Assembly: GCA_934572445.1 (NCBI GenBank) | Contig: CAKTLD010000072.1 | Span: 1-10,106 of the forward strand | DNA length: 10,106 bases | Source of the DNA: an uncultured Oscillospiraceae bacterium | GTDB taxonomy: Bacteria; Bacillota; Clostridia; Oscillospirales; Oscillospiraceae | Reading direction: 5' to 3' | Shown: positions 847 through 10,106 of the stretch, in pieces | Layout: every line of letters starts with the position of its first letter | How positions within the stretch are numbered: the stretch's first letter is position 1 | The notes under the pieces: generated by a model | Seen by the model: only the letters and a program-made list of their open reading frames with translations | Databases searched by the model: none | What the model was told of the DNA's origin: nothing | Made by a program: the position numbers and the translations under genes

Positions 847-1917
847 TCAGAGCTTGAGATCGCCGTCCTTGACCCAGCCCAGGCGGCGGCAGAGCGCATT
901 GATGGCCGGCGTGAGAATGGCGGGCAGCACGATGGCGACGAGCACAAGGCCCAGCCAGTCAAAGCCCGTGGGGGCAATGGCCGCCGCCCCCTTGGCAATG
1001 GCCTCCTCGCTCGGCGAGACCCAGCCGGTCCACACGCCGATGGGGCCGCAGAGCCCGCAGGTACCCATGCCGGAGTTGATGGGCGCGCCGTTCATTTCGA
1101 GCTTGAAAACGCAGGTCGCGATGGGACCCGTGATGGCGGAGGCGAGCGTCGGCGCGATCCAGACGCGGGGATTCCTGACGATGTTCGGCATCTGGAGCAT
1201 TGACGTGCCGAGACCCTGCGACACAAGCCCGCCCCAGCGGTTCTCCTTGAAGCTCATCACGGCGAAGCCAACCATCTGCGCGCAGCAGCCCGCGACGGCC
1301 GCGCCGCCGGCGATGCCCGTCAGCCGCAGCACCTGGCAGATGGCGGCGGACGAGATGGGCAGCGTGAGCGCGATGCCAACGAGGACAGAGACGGCAATGC
1401 CCATCCAGAACGGCTGGAGCTCCGTCGCATGGTCGATCACATCGCCAAAGGCCGAAGCCGCCAGGCCGATGGGCGGAGCGATCCACTTGGCCAGCGCCAC
1501 GCCGACGAGGATCGTCACGGCGGGCGTCACTAAAATATCGATCTTCGTCTCCTTGCTCACGGCCTTGCCGCACTCGGCGGCGACAATGGCGATGATCAGC
1601 ACCGCGAGCGGGCCGCCCGCGCCGCCCTCGGCGTTGGCCGCCCAGCCGACCGCGGCAAGGGAAAAGAGCACCATGGGGTCAGCCTTGAGCGCGTAGCCAA
1701 TGGCGACAGCCATCGCGGGGCCGGAAACGCTCATGGCGTATTTGCCGATATCCGTCAGAAAGGAAACGCCGAGCTGGTCGCCCAGCGTTTTGATGATCGT
1801 GCCGATCAGCAGCGAGCAGAAGAGGCCCTGCGCCATCGCGCCGAGTGCGTCGATGCCGTAGCGCTTGGCGGATACCTCAATGTTCTTGCGCTTGCAGAAT
1901 GATTTTATCGTTTCCAT
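847..1917 (-). CDS. PTS EIIC-like (PTS_EIIC_2/PfoR family) integral membrane protein; candidate NiaR-regulated niacin transporter
   Basis: This 356-residue membrane protein has many hydrophobic segments: about 25-45, 58-77, 82-95, 101-116, 128-150, 170-193, 200-222, 254-270 and 320-343. The conserved block around 235-250 (GLGTSMLQMPNIVRNP), the following PTLASAITGPIAT (256-268) and the glycine-rich loop 277-297 (GAPINSG...GTCGLCGP) are typical of the PTS_EIIC_2/PfoR family. No EIIA, EIIB or HPr gene or domain is present, so sugar phosphotransfer is not supported. The start ATG has a GAGG site five bases upstream, and translation ends in tandem stops (TGA then TAA). The gene follows niaR by 109 bases and has its own strong promoter overlapping a large palindrome with a NiaR-like core. 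I infer that it imports niacin or a related NAD precursor. The family is well supported; the substrate is a hypothesis from regulation and context. Confidence 0.85.
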   Translation of the reverse strand: METIKSFCKRKNIEVSAKRYGIDALGAMAQGLFCSLLIGTIIKTLGDQLGVSFLTDIGKYAMSVSGPAMAVAIGYALKADPMVLFSLAAVGWAANAEGGAGGPLAVLIIAIVAAECGKAVSKETKIDILVTPAVTILVGVALAKWIAPPIGLAASAFGDVIDHATELQPFWMGIAVSVLVGIALTLPISSAAICQVLRLTGIAGGAAVAGCCAQMVGFAVMSFKENRWGGLVSQGLGTSMLQMPNIVRNPRVWIAPTLASAITGPIATCVFKLEMNGAPINSGMGTCGLCGPIGVWTGWVSPSEEAIAKGAAAIAPTGFDWLGLVLVAIVLPAILTPAINALCRRLGWVKDGDLKL

Positions 1918-1943
1918 GGCAGCCTCACGATCTCATCACAAAA

Positions 1944-1991
1944 ATATAGTGTAATGCACAGGTGTCTTGACACATGCACATTACACTATAT
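1944..1991. promoter_or_regulatory. 48-bp near-palindromic operator, probable NiaR binding site
   Basis: The outer arms are a perfect 13-base inverted repeat: ATATAGTGTAATG (1944-1956) and CATTACACTATAT (1979-1991). The centre, GTGTCTTGACAC (1962-1973), is a second perfect 5+5 inverted repeat sharing the same axis. The bases between add two more matched pairs. From memory, Firmicutes NiaR (YrxA) boxes are palindromes of the form AGGTGTC-N2-GACACCT; the left half here (CAGGTGTC) fits and the right half (GACACATG) has one change. The site lies 27 bases before the EIIC-like gene, with niaR just upstream. It covers the promoter -10 and about the first 20 transcribed bases, which suits a repressor operator. 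Confidence 0.75.
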
Positions 1992-2013
1992 CCGTTCCCT
2001 CTTCACTTGTCAA
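1985..2013 (-). promoter_or_regulatory. Strong sigma-A promoter for the EIIC-like gene
   Basis: On the minus strand, a perfect TTGACA (2008-2013), a 17-base spacer and TATAGT (1985-1990) give a near-consensus promoter. The -10 hexamer is part of the outer arm of the palindrome at 1944-1991. The predicted start is about 1978, which places the GTGTCTTGACAC core roughly at +5 to +17, so repressor binding there would block initiation. Confidence 0.8.
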
Positions 2014-2026
2014 GAGGCGTTTCCGC

Positions 2027-2536
2027 TCAGCTCTCCTCCAGCAGCACGCCCAGCGCGCGCAGCGCGTCCTTCGCGCGGACGAACGCCGCCTCGTCGGGAC
2101 AGGAGAGCGTATGAAGGTGGATGCCGTCGGTCAGGCTGGAGAGCGGCTCCGCCGTTTCGCAGCGCTCGATGAACTGTCCGACCTCGTAGCGGTTCGAAAT
2201 TTGCAGCGGGCCGGTGAGCTGGCCGTAGATGGGGTGGTCGACGATGACGTCGATGACCGTGCAGCCGTTGTCGACGATCGCGTTGAGCTCGGCTTCCATC
2301 TCCTGCGGCGTGTGCTTCACGGCGACGCGGCGGACGATGCCGCGTGCCTCTTTCGGCGTCACATAGCCGCGCGGGGTCGCGAGGATCTCCTCGCCCGAGG
2401 AGCGCAGCAGCGCGATATCGCCCACGATGATCTGGCGCGAGACGGAGAATTTTTCCGCCAGCGCGGAGGCGCTGATCGGCGCGTCCGCCGCGCGCAGCAC
2501 GTCGGCAATGGCCTTTCGCCTCTCGTCAGAATACAC
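2027..2536 (-). CDS. niaR: NiaR-type transcriptional repressor of NAD precursor genes (HTH plus 3H domain)
   Basis: This is a 169-residue regulator. Residues 1-60 form a winged helix-turn-helix (ERRKAI...ISASALAEKFSVSRQIIVGDI, then the wing ILATPRGYV). Residues about 65-169 form the 3H domain that senses niacin. H75, E83, H140 and H142 keep the spacing of the metal ligands I recall for Thermotoga TM1602 (His79, Glu87, His144, His146); H101 lies in the conserved DHPIYG. Known family members repress NAD synthesis and niacin uptake genes when niacin is plentiful. I chose the GTG at 2534-2536 because GGGGAGGGAG lies five bases upstream of it. An in-frame ATG at 2558-2560 would add eight residues but has no good binding site. 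The 99-base gap to the preceding kinase gene shows no convincing promoter or terminator, so niaR may be read with the deo genes. The likely target is the operator at 1944-1991. Confidence 0.9.
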   Translation of the reverse strand: MYSDERRKAIADVLRAADAPISASALAEKFSVSRQIIVGDIALLRSSGEEILATPRGYVTPKEARGIVRRVAVKHTPQEMEAELNAIVDNGCTVIDVIVDHPIYGQLTGPLQISNRYEVGQFIERCETAEPLSSLTDGIHLHTLSCPDEAAFVRAKDALRALGVLLEES

Positions 2537-2635: not shown

Positions 2636-3562
2636 TTAGTACTCAAAGCAGCTGCCGCCGACAAACTCGCGCACGATGGAGTCGCGCGGCACATAGTCGG
2701 TCCTGAGCGGCGGTACGGAGTTGACCACGTCGAAAAGATCGCTCAGCCCGTGCTCGGCGATAAAGTGATCGTCGAGCTGGCTGTAAAACTCGGGAATTTC
2801 CTTTAGATAGCGCGCGAGGATGCACGGCTCGTAGTCGTGGAAGGTGTCGATGTGGATGCTCGCGTTCGGCTTGTTCGGCATGATGTAGTTGAGCTCGCCG
2901 CGGTCCACGCTCTCGGCGCGCTCGACGGTCTGGCGCAGGGAATGGCCGCGCCCCTGATAGTCGCGGATCATGCGGCGCGCCACGCGCAGCTGCTCGGGGC
3001 GCACGATGCGGTCCTTTTCCGTGATGATACGCGTGCGCGGGGCGACGTAAACGCCCGTGGCCTCGCTCTTGAGCTCATCGAAGATGAGCGGGTTGAGCAT
3101 GTGGATGCCCTCGGCAATGATGACGGCATCCTTGTCGCCCTGCATGGGCTTATAGCCGCCGACGCCGCCGGACTTGAAGTCGTAAACCGGCAGCTCGACA
3201 AGCTCGCCGTCCATCAGGCGGTGGATATCCTCGATCAAAAGCTGACGGTTCACGCAGTAGGGCGATTCCCAGTCGCTCGCCTCGGGCGGGCGCTCCGACA
3301 GCGGCAGGAAGAAGTTATCCATACTCAGCAGGCAGACCTTCACGCCGAGGTTCTCAAGGTACGCCTTCAGGCGCATGGCTGTGGTCGTCTTGCCCGAGCC
3401 GCTCGGGCCCGTCAGGCAGACGATGGGCTTTTGCCCCTTGTTCATTAAGATGCTCGCCGCGGCGGAGCTGATCTTGTCGTGGAAGACCTCCTCGCAGCGC
3501 AGGACGAAGCGGGTGTCGTCCTTCATATTGGTCACAATGTTTTCAATGTCGATGACGCGCAT
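2636..3562 (-). CDS. Uridine kinase-like P-loop nucleoside kinase
   Basis: This 308-residue protein belongs to the uridine kinase/phosphoribulokinase superfamily. It has a Walker A motif GPSGSGKTT (52-60), a substrate-side aspartate in SMDNF (D82), an aromatic/Asp stretch PVYDFKSG (125-132), a hydrophobic Walker-B-like strand ending in EGIH (151-154) and an arginine-rich lid region (RVARRMIRDYQGRG, 193-206). It is longer than classical Udk (about 210 residues), with roughly 45 extra N-terminal residues and a C-terminal extension. It matches the larger clostridial uridine-kinase-like group. Classical Udk phosphorylates uridine and cytidine with a nucleoside triphosphate donor in the cytoplasm. 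The RBS AAAGGAG is seven bases upstream of the ATG, and the gene is 32 bases downstream of deoD. A nucleoside substrate fits the context, but pyrimidine, purine or nicotinamide riboside cannot be told apart from sequence alone. Confidence 0.85.
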   Translation of the reverse strand: MRVIDIENIVTNMKDDTRFVLRCEEVFHDKISSAAASILMNKGQKPIVCLTGPSGSGKTTTAMRLKAYLENLGVKVCLLSMDNFFLPLSERPPEASDWESPYCVNRQLLIEDIHRLMDGELVELPVYDFKSGGVGGYKPMQGDKDAVIIAEGIHMLNPLIFDELKSEATGVYVAPRTRIITEKDRIVRPEQLRVARRMIRDYQGRGHSLRQTVERAESVDRGELNYIMPNKPNASIHIDTFHDYEPCILARYLKEIPEFYSQLDDHFIAEHGLSDLFDVVNSVPPLRTDYVPRDSIVREFVGGSCFEY

Positions 3563-3594
3563 CGTTGTTCTCCTTTCAAAAGGGACGGCGCGGC

Positions 3595-4311
3595 TCAGCG
3601 CGCCGCCATCTTCACAGCGGTCTCAAGCGCCACGCGCATCATATCGGTGAAGCTCGTCTGCCGCTCTTCGGGCGAGAGCGCCTCGCCGGTAATGATGTTA
3701 TCCGAGATCGAGCAGATGGAAAGTCCGCGCTTTCCCGTATAGGCTGCGTTGCAATAAAGCGCGGCGGCCTCCATCTCAATGGCGAGCACGCCCATCTTCG
3801 CCCATTTGAGCGAGGGGTCGGACGCATCGTAAAACGTGTCGGACGAGTAGAGATTCCCGACCGGCATCGTGACGCCGAGCTCCTTCGCCGATTCGACAGC
3901 GGCGGAGAGGAGCGCAAAGTCCGCGATGGGCGCAAACGTTCCGCCGAGGCCGTACTGCGCGGCGTAATTCGAGTTCGTACACGCGCCCATACCCGCGACC
4001 ACGTCGCCGAGCGTTAAATTCTTTTGCAGCGCGCCCGCCGAGCCGACGCGGATGATGCTCTCGACATCGTACTGCGTGAACAGCTCATAGGAGTAGATGC
4101 CGATGGACGGCATACCCATACCGCTTGCCATCACGCTGACGGGAACGCCCTTGTAGGTGCCCGTGTAGCCCTGCACGCCGCGGACATTGTTGACAAGCTT
4201 TGGTTCATCTAAAAACGTTTCGGCGATAAACTTCGCGCGCAGCGGGTCGCCGGGCATCAGAACGGTTTTGGCAAAGTCGCCTTTTTTCGCGCTGTTGTGC
4301 GGAGTCGGCAT
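3595..4311 (-). CDS. deoD: Purine-nucleoside phosphorylase, DeoD type
   Basis: This 238-residue enzyme matches the hexameric bacterial DeoD family in full length. It phosphorolyses purine (deoxy)ribonucleosides to the base plus (deoxy)ribose 1-phosphate. Visible active-site elements are H5 near the N-terminus, the phosphate loop MPGDPLRAK (19-27, with G21 and R25), R44, RVGSAGA (88-94), the sugar-binding EMEAAALY (179-186) and the general-acid pair S203-D204 in SISDNI. D204 has the same number as in the E. coli enzyme. The RBS AAAGGGGAGG is seven bases before the ATG. The gene follows deoC by 18 bases, so the two are co-transcribed. The ribose or deoxyribose 1-phosphate it makes would need a phosphopentomutase, not in this window, before DeoC can act. 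Confidence 0.97.
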   Translation of the reverse strand: MPTPHNSAKKGDFAKTVLMPGDPLRAKFIAETFLDEPKLVNNVRGVQGYTGTYKGVPVSVMASGMGMPSIGIYSYELFTQYDVESIIRVGSAGALQKNLTLGDVVAGMGACTNSNYAAQYGLGGTFAPIADFALLSAAVESAKELGVTMPVGNLYSSDTFYDASDPSLKWAKMGVLAIEMEAAALYCNAAYTGKRGLSICSISDNIITGEALSPEERQTSFTDMMRVALETAVKMAAR

Positions 4312-4329
4312 ATTGAGCCCTCCCCTTTC

Positions 4330-5019
4330 TTAAAATTCGCCCTTGGCCTCAAGCTCCTTGACGGCCTTGACGATGCGGGACGTGCCGAGGCGGTCGGCGC
4401 CGAGCTTGAGGAAATCCTCGGCGTCCTGCAGGCTGGCGATGCCGCCCGCGGCCTTGATCTTCTTGCCGTTCGTCATGTGGGCGGCCATGAGGGCGACGTC
4501 CTCTCGGGTCGCGCCGCCGCCGGCAAAGCCCGTGGAGGTCTTGATATAGTCAGCGTGAGAGTTGGAAACGACCTCGCAGAGCTTGATCTTCTCTTCCTCG
4601 GTGAGCAGGCAGGTCTCGATGATGACCTTTAAGATGTTGCCGTGGCAGGAGATCTTGACGGAGTTGATCTCCTGAAGGATCTTGTCGTACTGGCCTTCCT
4701 TGACCCAGCCGAGGTTGATGACCATGTCGATCTCGGTCGCGCCGTCGGCGACGGCGGACTCGGCCTCCATGCACTTGATGCCGCTGGGCGTGTAGCCGTT
4801 GGGGAAGCCGATGACCGTGCAGATGGGCAGCTGGCCGAAGCCGTAGTGCTGCTGCTCTGCGACGTAGTGCGCGGCATGGTTCACATAGGTCTGCGGGATG
4901 CAGACGCTCGCGCAGCCGTATTTGATGCCGTCGTCGCAAACCTCCTTGATGTCCTCCCAGGTGGCAGTCTGCTTGAGGAGGGTATGGTCAACGTGCTTGA
5001 GAATTTCCTTGACGTCCAT
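4330..5019 (-). CDS. deoC: Deoxyribose-phosphate aldolase
   Basis: This 229-residue class I aldolase (DERA) cleaves 2-deoxyribose 5-phosphate to acetaldehyde and glyceraldehyde 3-phosphate, the last step of deoxynucleoside catabolism. Visible catalytic residues are D98 in TEIDMVINLG, the Schiff-base lysine K160 in DYIKTSTGF and the activating lysine K189 in KIKAAGGI. The length is normal for the short clostridial form. I placed the start at the ATG 5017-5019 because AAAGGA lies ten bases upstream and the family begins here. A longer in-frame reading to 5112 would cross the promoter and is not credible. It is the first gene of the deoC-deoD-kinase group, directly behind a near-consensus promoter at 5065-5093. 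Confidence 0.97.
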   Translation of the reverse strand: MDVKEILKHVDHTLLKQTATWEDIKEVCDDGIKYGCASVCIPQTYVNHAAHYVAEQQHYGFGQLPICTVIGFPNGYTPSGIKCMEAESAVADGATEIDMVINLGWVKEGQYDKILQEINSVKISCHGNILKVIIETCLLTEEEKIKLCEVVSNSHADYIKTSTGFAGGGATREDVALMAAHMTNGKKIKAAGGIASLQDAEDFLKLGADRLGTSRIVKAVKELEAKGEF

Positions 5020-5051
5020 TATGTTCGTTTCCTTTCTTTGGAAAGTATTTT

Positions 5052-9200: not shown

Positions 9201-10106
9201 ATGAAATTCTCACAGATGCCCTACACCCGCCCCGATCCCGAGGCCGCCAAGCAGCAGCTTTCCGCGCTGACGGAAGAGCTCAAAAGCGCCAGGAGCTACG
9301 AGGAAGCGCGCAAGGTCTTCCTTTCGCAGCAGGAGCTGATGAGCCACATCTCCACCGCCGCGGCGCTCGCGAGCATCCGTCACTCGATCGACACGCGCGA
9401 CAAATTCTACGACGGCGAGGAGAAGTTCTGGAACAACTTCACCCCCGAGCTTGAGGAATACAATCAGGCGTGGACGGCGGCGATGCTGGGAAGCGCCTTC
9501 CGCGCGGACTTTGAAAAGGAATACGGCGATCTGATGTTCGTCAACGCCGAGATCGCGCTCAAGACCTTCTCCCCCGCCATCATCCCTGAGCTTCAGCAGG
9601 AAAACGACCTGACGCAGGAGTATGAAAAGCTGCTCGCCTCGGCGCAGATTCCCTTTGACGGGAAGACCTATACGCTCTCCCAGCTCTCCCCGTTCAAGAC
9701 CTGCGCGGATGACGAAAAGCGTCTTGCCGCGTGGAAGGCCGAGGGCCAGTGGTACAAGGACAATCAGGCAAAATTCGACGAGCTCTACGACAAGCTCGTA
9801 AAACTCCGCGACGCGATGGGCAAAAAGCTCGGCTACGAGGGCTACACCACGCTCGGCTACTACCGCATGGGCCGCAACTGCTACACGAAGGAAGACGTTG
9901 AAACGTTCCGCGCGGCGGTCGTGAAGTATCTCGTGCCCGTGGCCGACAAGGTCTACCGCGAGCAGGCCAAGCGCCTCGGCAAGACCTATCCCATGAGCTT
10001 TGCCGACAACGCGCTCGAGTTCCGCTCCGGCAATCCCCGCCCCGTGGGCACGCCTGACGAGATCCTGGCCCAGGGCATGAAGTTCTACAGCGAGCTCTCC
10101 CCCGAG
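9201..10106 (+). CDS. M3-family oligoendopeptidase, C-terminus cut by window edge
   Basis: The frame is open from the ATG at 9201 to the window end (302 codons), with RBS GGAGGT close upstream. The sequence starts MKFSQMPYTRPD and continues as a helical, Glu/Lys/Gln-rich domain typical of Firmicutes M3 oligoendopeptidases (PepF/thimet group, usually about 560 residues). Supporting blocks are the region around 188-193 (LSPFKT), AAWKAEGQWYKDN, LRDAMGKKLGYEGYTTLGYYRMGR and YLVPVADKVYREQAKRLG. The zinc motif HExxH lies further downstream than the sequence shown, so catalytic competence cannot be checked here. Family members are cytoplasmic zinc enzymes that cut short peptides. It is the second gene after the MFS transporter. 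Confidence 0.92.
   Translation, partial: MKFSQMPYTRPDPEAAKQQLSALTEELKSARSYEEARKVFLSQQELMSHISTAAALASIRHSIDTRDKFYDGEEKFWNNFTPELEEYNQAWTAAMLGSAFRADFEKEYGDLMFVNAEIALKTFSPAIIPELQQENDLTQEYEKLLASAQIPFDGKTYTLSQLSPFKTCADDEKRLAAWKAEGQWYKDNQAKFDELYDKLVKLRDAMGKKLGYEGYTTLGYYRMGRNCYTKEDVETFRAAVVKYLVPVADKVYREQAKRLGKTYPMSFADNALEFRSGNPRPVGTPDEILAQGMKFYSELSPE

Follow-up and report, generated by a model that had tools for sequence, protein, structure and literature searches.

An EIIC-fold permease without phosphotransferase partners as a predicted NiaR-controlled nicotinate importer in an uncultured Oscillospiraceae bacterium

What does a permease of the sugar phosphotransferase system (PTS) do when it lies next to the gene of a niacin-responsive repressor and not next to its phosphotransfer partners? 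The question is raised by a 10,106-nucleotide stretch of DNA from an uncultured Oscillospiraceae bacterium (Clostridia; Oscillospirales; contig CAKTLD010000072.1), which, as a whole, is here called the window. On its minus strand, an orphan membrane protein of 356 amino acids with the predicted EIIC fold, matching the Pfam family PF13303 (PTS_EIIC_2) and hereafter called EIIC, is encoded at 847–1917, separated by 109 nucleotides from niaR (2027–2560, same strand). The protein is currently annotated as a sugar transporter, yet its switch, and in its relatives the adjacent genes and the other genes of the genome, are what one would expect for an importer of niacin (vitamin B3). We consider it quite likely that EIIC is a PTS-independent nicotinate importer, repressed by NiaR in this genome.

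In the mechanism we propose, the stand-alone permease would import nicotinate (niacin) without phosphotransfer by the PTS, and the nicotinate phosphoribosyltransferase PncB would trap it intracellularly by conversion to nicotinate mononucleotide, which then feeds the synthesis of nicotinamide adenine dinucleotide (NAD). With niacin plentiful, niacin-bound NiaR would occupy an operator just past the −10 box and block the EIIC promoter; with niacin low, NiaR would be released from the operator and the promoter freed. Of this scheme, we infer the substrate, the coupling ion, the direction of transport and the binding by the window's own NiaR.

The permease gene, its promoter and its predicted repressor

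Read directly from the sequences are the gene, its predicted fold, its promoter and operator, and the ties of its relatives to niaR, to pncB and to a missing nadA. A promoter search placed a −35 box, TTGACA (2008–2013), and a −10 box, TATAGT (1985–1990), upstream of EIIC on the minus strand, 17 nucleotides apart and matching the consensus at 11 of 12 positions, with four promoter-like sites in the 2 kb searched against 0.4 in shuffles. From the position of the −10 box, transcription should start near 1978. There, covering roughly positions +1 to +20 of the transcript, lies a NiaR-type operator, GCATGTGTCAAGACACCTGT (1958–1977, minus strand), whose 20-mer agrees with the pattern ACANNTGTCNNGACANNTGT, picked after viewing related sites, at 13 of 14 positions; only one of 3,035 background windows reached 12 and none reached 13. 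Its core, GTGTCTTGACAC (1962–1973), is matched nowhere else in the window, even with two mismatches allowed, and agrees with both the published NiaR type I operator consensus, TGT-N4-ACA (PMC7713382), and the core of the pneumococcal operator TACWRGTGTMTWKACASYTRWAW, which is backed by promoter mutations (PMC5343564). TGTCNTGACA occurs once in the window, with 0.04 occurrences expected. The operator is enclosed in a longer inverted repeat (1944–1966 and 1969–1991), a 48-bp dyad that spans the −10 box and whose arms are 87% complementary. The proposal made earlier from the letters of this DNA alone (the sequence-only reading), that EIIC has its own promoter overlapped by a palindrome with a NiaR-like core, is thereby upheld.

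Longer dyads also surround related NiaR operators. In the window and in 26 of 80 homologous loci, all scoring 12 or more and being related rather than independent sequences, each of the first 7 bp beyond the 20-bp core is symmetric, with varied pair types, in 63–70% of cases (n=27), compared to 28–36% when flanks were paired across loci; in the relatives, the outer arms change in sequence while keeping their symmetry. Those of the window reach into the −10 box and so are not fully transcribed. Palindrome correction, extra NiaR contacts or a cruciform are candidate causes of the symmetry. In two genomes where no NiaR was found, those of L008 and L013 (upstream of 5001), a different, GC-rich palindrome, CACGGGCG...CGCCCGTG, takes the position of the EIIC operator and is possibly the site of another repressor.

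The product of niaR carries HTH_11 and 3H domains, and its residues 11–176 match both the PDB chain 9ebr, ‘Probable transcription repressor NiaR’ (E 3.7e-43), and the solved NiaR 7cv0 (E 9.3e-36). It starts either at ATG 2560 or at GTG 2536, the latter being preceded by a good Shine-Dalgarno sequence (GGGGAGGGAG) and agreeing with the end coordinate, 2536, of the sequence-only reading.

As for EIIC itself, PF13303 is its sole Pfam match at E ≤ 0.001 (303.6 bits; profile positions 2–327 of 327, residues 23 to 356), and its AlphaFold model, with a predicted local distance difference test score of 95.2, has the EIIC fold of the glucose superfamily. A PDB sequence search gave no credible relative of the protein, and hhalign gave its comparison with fructose EIIC a probability of 2%. 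Neither EIIA nor EIIB is found among the ten open reading frames scanned in the window (EIIC included; a partial frame at 9201–10106 lay outside the scan), in line with the earlier description of a partnerless EIIC_2-type protein downstream of niaR. Where names of homologues are listed, they are mostly ‘PTS (sugar) transporter subunit IIC’, and none of the named entries among the 359 distinct homologues listed, most of them unnamed and the names abbreviated, has a niacin label. One homologue, named ‘regulatory protein (pfos/r)’ in one source, recalls the label PfoR and with it a different role, in which EIIC would be a membrane sensor or regulator, or an exporter, under NiaR control but importing nothing. 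We find this very unlikely, as the transport fold takes up nearly the whole chain (residues 15–353 align to 8qsr), PF13303 being the only Pfam domain, and as an importer is the expected partner in genomes without nadA. A 587-amino-acid homologue (P0123) was considered as a fusion with NiaR and rejected, its extra length being an internal repeat of EIIC.

Repressor, operator and NAD genes among the relatives

If NiaR controls the permease, operators should follow the repressor from genome to genome, and this is what is seen. In a first set of homologues (the best 80 of at least 588 confirmed candidates, at 65–90% identity), the 200 nucleotides before the EIIC gene were scored, and NiaR presence was judged by a 3H protein in the genome. 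An operator of at least 10 out of 14 precedes EIIC in 31 of the 36 genomes with NiaR and in 4 of the 44 without (p=9e-13), and one of at least 12 in 25/36 and 1/44, respectively; the link holds (p < 2e-10) at every threshold from 10 to 13. A second set of 60 loci, sampled more widely, gave 19/31 against 0/29 at a score of at least 11 (p=8e-8). Both thresholds (10 and 11) were chosen after viewing sites, the range 10–13 being tabulated for the first set only, and the pattern overlooks some odd sites (the match in L024 is off-register). On a FastTree phylogeny of 140 proteins, operator state changes at least 29 times. Among 21 independent supported-branch pairs differing in operator, NiaR differs in the matching direction in about 12 and in the opposite one in none, and is unchanged in about 9 (median p=0.0005; 136 rows). 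Operator and repressor thus tend towards joint gain and loss, as expected from real regulation. NiaR sites upstream of the homologues, predicted by the sequence-only reading, are therefore present and tied to the presence of NiaR, and an operator lying within the promoter and tracking the repressor across genomes argues for placing the window's EIIC in the NiaR regulon.

The neighbourhood of EIIC in its relatives points the same way. Within 350 nucleotides upstream and on the same strand, NiaR is the neighbour in 17/78 cases, whilst every other family accounts for at most three. The gene pncB adjoins EIIC in 6 of 144 loci, many of which have short flanks. It stands in direct tandem with EIIC, with no niaR between, in L028 and L040 (a 3H protein was not found in the L040 genome), in the order pncB-niaR-EIIC in L027, L045 and L066, and divergently from EIIC in L126.

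In a sample of 156 genomes of the class, EIIC was above the cut-off in 75, two genomes with sub-threshold PF13303 matches (G161 and G227) being counted as lacking it. There, 34 genomes hold both niaR and EIIC, and in 13 of them the two are at most 1 kb apart; 32 hold both niaR and nadA, and in 16 of these the distance is at most 5 kb. No genome shows both arrangements, as if niaR had left the biosynthetic operon to join the importer gene.

A second sample, of 79 genomes of the order, contains EIIC in 42, NadA in 24, NiaR in 17, PncB in 60 and PTS Enzyme I (PF05524) in 22. Both samples were requested at a completeness of at least 90%, the completeness of individual genomes not being displayed, and the presence-absence statistics ignore phylogeny. 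PncB occurs in 41/42 genomes of the order with EIIC and in 19/37 without (p=1.4e-6), and NadA in 3/42 and 21/37, respectively (p=1.5e-6). EIIC is accordingly distributed by NAD genotype, being present in 38 of 50 genomes with PncB and without NadA, 3 of 10 with both, none of 14 with NadA alone and 1 of 5 with neither. The loss of nadABC that a niacin importer would lead one to look for stood up in part: nadA is absent from 55 of the 58 genomes with close EIIC homologues, and from 39/42 genomes of the order with EIIC against 16/37 without it, nadA being the sole gene of the three profiled and this in relatives only. To what the sequence-only reading had in favour of a niacin transporter, these results add the adjacency and co-occurrence of pncB, the EIIC fold and a frequently missing Enzyme I, discussed below.

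Objections and other possible substrates

Several observations pull in the opposite direction. Within the order, NiaR is not significantly linked to EIIC (11/42 against 6/37, p=0.41), and neither is it in the class (p=0.07). In the order, 31 of the 42 EIIC genomes lack NiaR, so that the earlier concern that homologues might mostly lack NiaR sites or niaR neighbours proved partly justified; as 30 of these 31 also lack nadA, this weakens control by NiaR as a trait of the family rather than the role of niacin transporter. The link to nadA is weaker across the class (21/75 against 39/81, p=0.013), where nadA is present in 16 of the 34 genomes with both NiaR and EIIC, and a salvage importer may therefore serve prototrophs too. 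Five of the 36 NiaR-bearing genomes of the first set (L020, L028, L054, L071 and L081) have no operator scoring 10 or more; L054 also has nadA, and in the genome of L028, one of the pncB tandems, the genes for NiaR and NadA are about 3 kb from each other. Enzyme I occurs in 12 of the 42 EIIC genomes of the order. In L055, its gene (2867–4774) precedes the EIIC homologue at a distance of about 0.2 kb, and in L001 a fructose-PTS operon is found near EIIC, with def in between. Finally, the genes flanking the niaR-EIIC pair in the window would suit a nucleoside substrate too.

The Enzyme I cases bear on whether EIIC could be an ordinary sugar PTS permease with EIIA and EIIB encoded elsewhere, a reading we find scarcely credible. 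Enzyme I was not found in 30 of the 42 EIIC genomes, where assembly gaps are possible, and is no more frequent with EIIC than without (10/37, p=1.0); taken as a rough control, it shows no clear link with nadA (p=0.42) or pncB (p=0.08). HPr, being present in 79/79 genomes of the order, is uninformative as a control, and L057 has a weak Enzyme I-like match (60 bits). The lists of the 25 commonest neighbour families, drawn from 81 genes downstream and 78 upstream, show neither EIIA nor EIIB, rarer families being unlisted. With the operator and the genome profiles indicating NAD, a sugar PTS partner was therefore judged unlikely, L055 and L001 being the exceptions. The expectation of the sequence-only reading that EIIC would keep company with niaR rather than with PTS genes holds by linkage, niaR being a recurrent upstream neighbour and Enzyme I adjacent once; by co-occurrence in genomes it does not hold, neither protein being associated with EIIC.

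The flanks bear on a second alternative, namely that the substrate taken up by EIIC is not nicotinate but a different precursor of NAD (nicotinamide, nicotinamide riboside or quinolinate). On the minus strand, the gene order runs from a udk-like kinase (2636–3562) through niaR and EIIC to a PnrA-like substrate-binding protein, whose gene starts at ATG 656, runs leftwards and is cut by the window end (3–656). Together with a PNP/UDP family phosphorylase and a DeoC-type aldolase, these nucleoside-salvage-type genes enclose the pair on both sides (3–656 and 2636–5022). In Streptococcus pneumoniae, moreover, pnuC, which encodes the riboside transporter, is under NiaR repression as well (PMC5343564). 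Yet the NAD-salvage enzyme found adjacent to EIIC is PncB (pncA, nadR and nadC were not searched for), and it is encoded by nearly every EIIC carrier of the order, which makes a precursor other than nicotinate unlikely. Rfam at gathering scores gave no RNA elements in the window, and no viral contigs matched the peptide patterns searched.

The wider family and the known niacin transporters

Nicotinate import by EIIC might be one case of a broader habit of its family. On five Lactococcus and Enterococcus plasmids (L193, L196, L197, L198 and L199), distant PF13303 paralogs begin 12–25 nucleotides after a gene annotated as 2-dehydropantoate 2-reductase, in 5/5 cases that are not independent, as the reductase accession is identical in three. 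The L193 reductase is PanE/ApbA by Pfam, two scanned paralogs score 342 and 328 bits, and no EIIA or EIIB is among their annotated neighbours. These paralogs belong to the same Pfam family as the window's EIIC and are paired with a small-acid enzyme. They are only 23.5% and 24.5% identical to EIIC and lack the stretches LPISSAA, GCCxQMxGFAV and GTSMLQ of the niacin-linked group. Paralogs from Nicoliella (L194) and Listeria (L195) have no such reductase pairing. The pairing suggests that the family transports small acids, with the niacin group as one branch; that the plasmid paralogs would carry a keto or hydroxy acid is a guess. It is conceivable, if somewhat short of probable, that PF13303 consists of EIIC-fold permeases that departed from the PTS and are now small-acid importers; its niaR/pncB-linked group would be the niacin transporter so far missing for most genomes of the order that salvage niacin, and for many other Clostridia, whether or not they have NiaR, whilst the reductase-paired group would move ketopantoate or a similar keto or hydroxy acid.

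If nicotinate is indeed the substrate, a very large protein group (at least 8,000 relatives were scored), mostly called PTS subunit IIC where a name is listed, would gain a testable role in vitamin transport, and the EIIC fold would be seen to operate without the phosphotransferase system. A survey of gut genomes detected the known B3 transporters (NiaP, NiaX and NiaY) in just 25% of the B3 auxotrophs and described the knowledge of B3 transport as incomplete (PMC6593275). Given its presence in most sampled genomes of the order with PncB and without NadA, EIIC could fill part of that gap.

The literature search, within the parts of the texts retrieved, showed no link of PF13303, EIIC or PfoR to niacin. 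Searching for PF13303, COG3641, K07035 or PTS_EIIC_2 gave one match (PMC6952197), the start of whose abstract deals with prebiotic oligosaccharides, and the portions seen of a NiaP paper (PMC12301409) and of one on NiaX (PMC6837493) contain nothing tying the EIIC family to niacin. NiaY, encountered there by name only, was reported from five genomes of Bacilli and Clostridia (PMC5343564) and, in S. sobrinus, is the name given to the niacin transporter (PMC12735969). The ties to pncB in tandem, the nadA and Enzyme I profiles, and the joint changes of operator and repressor stand even if EIIC is NiaY, and we would give about an even chance that the two are the same family. Another protein, BH3254, is a nicotinate-regulated transporter according to SEED; a literature search for it gave nothing.

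NiaR-regulated niacin transporters are already a known kind, and NiaP, one of them, is a protein of the major facilitator superfamily. Like the prediction for EIIC, NiaP, NiaX and NiaY are repressed by NiaR and tied to niacin salvage (PMC7713382, PMC5343564); NiaX is described as a substrate component of the energy-coupling factor type (PMC5343564), differing in this from the EIIC-fold protein of the window. From the glucose superfamily of PTS permeases, whose fold its model shares, EIIC differs: in structural alignments it is 10–15% identical to glucose EIIC, MalT and ChbC, no EIIA or EIIB was found near it, and in many genomes of its group a search for Enzyme I gave none.
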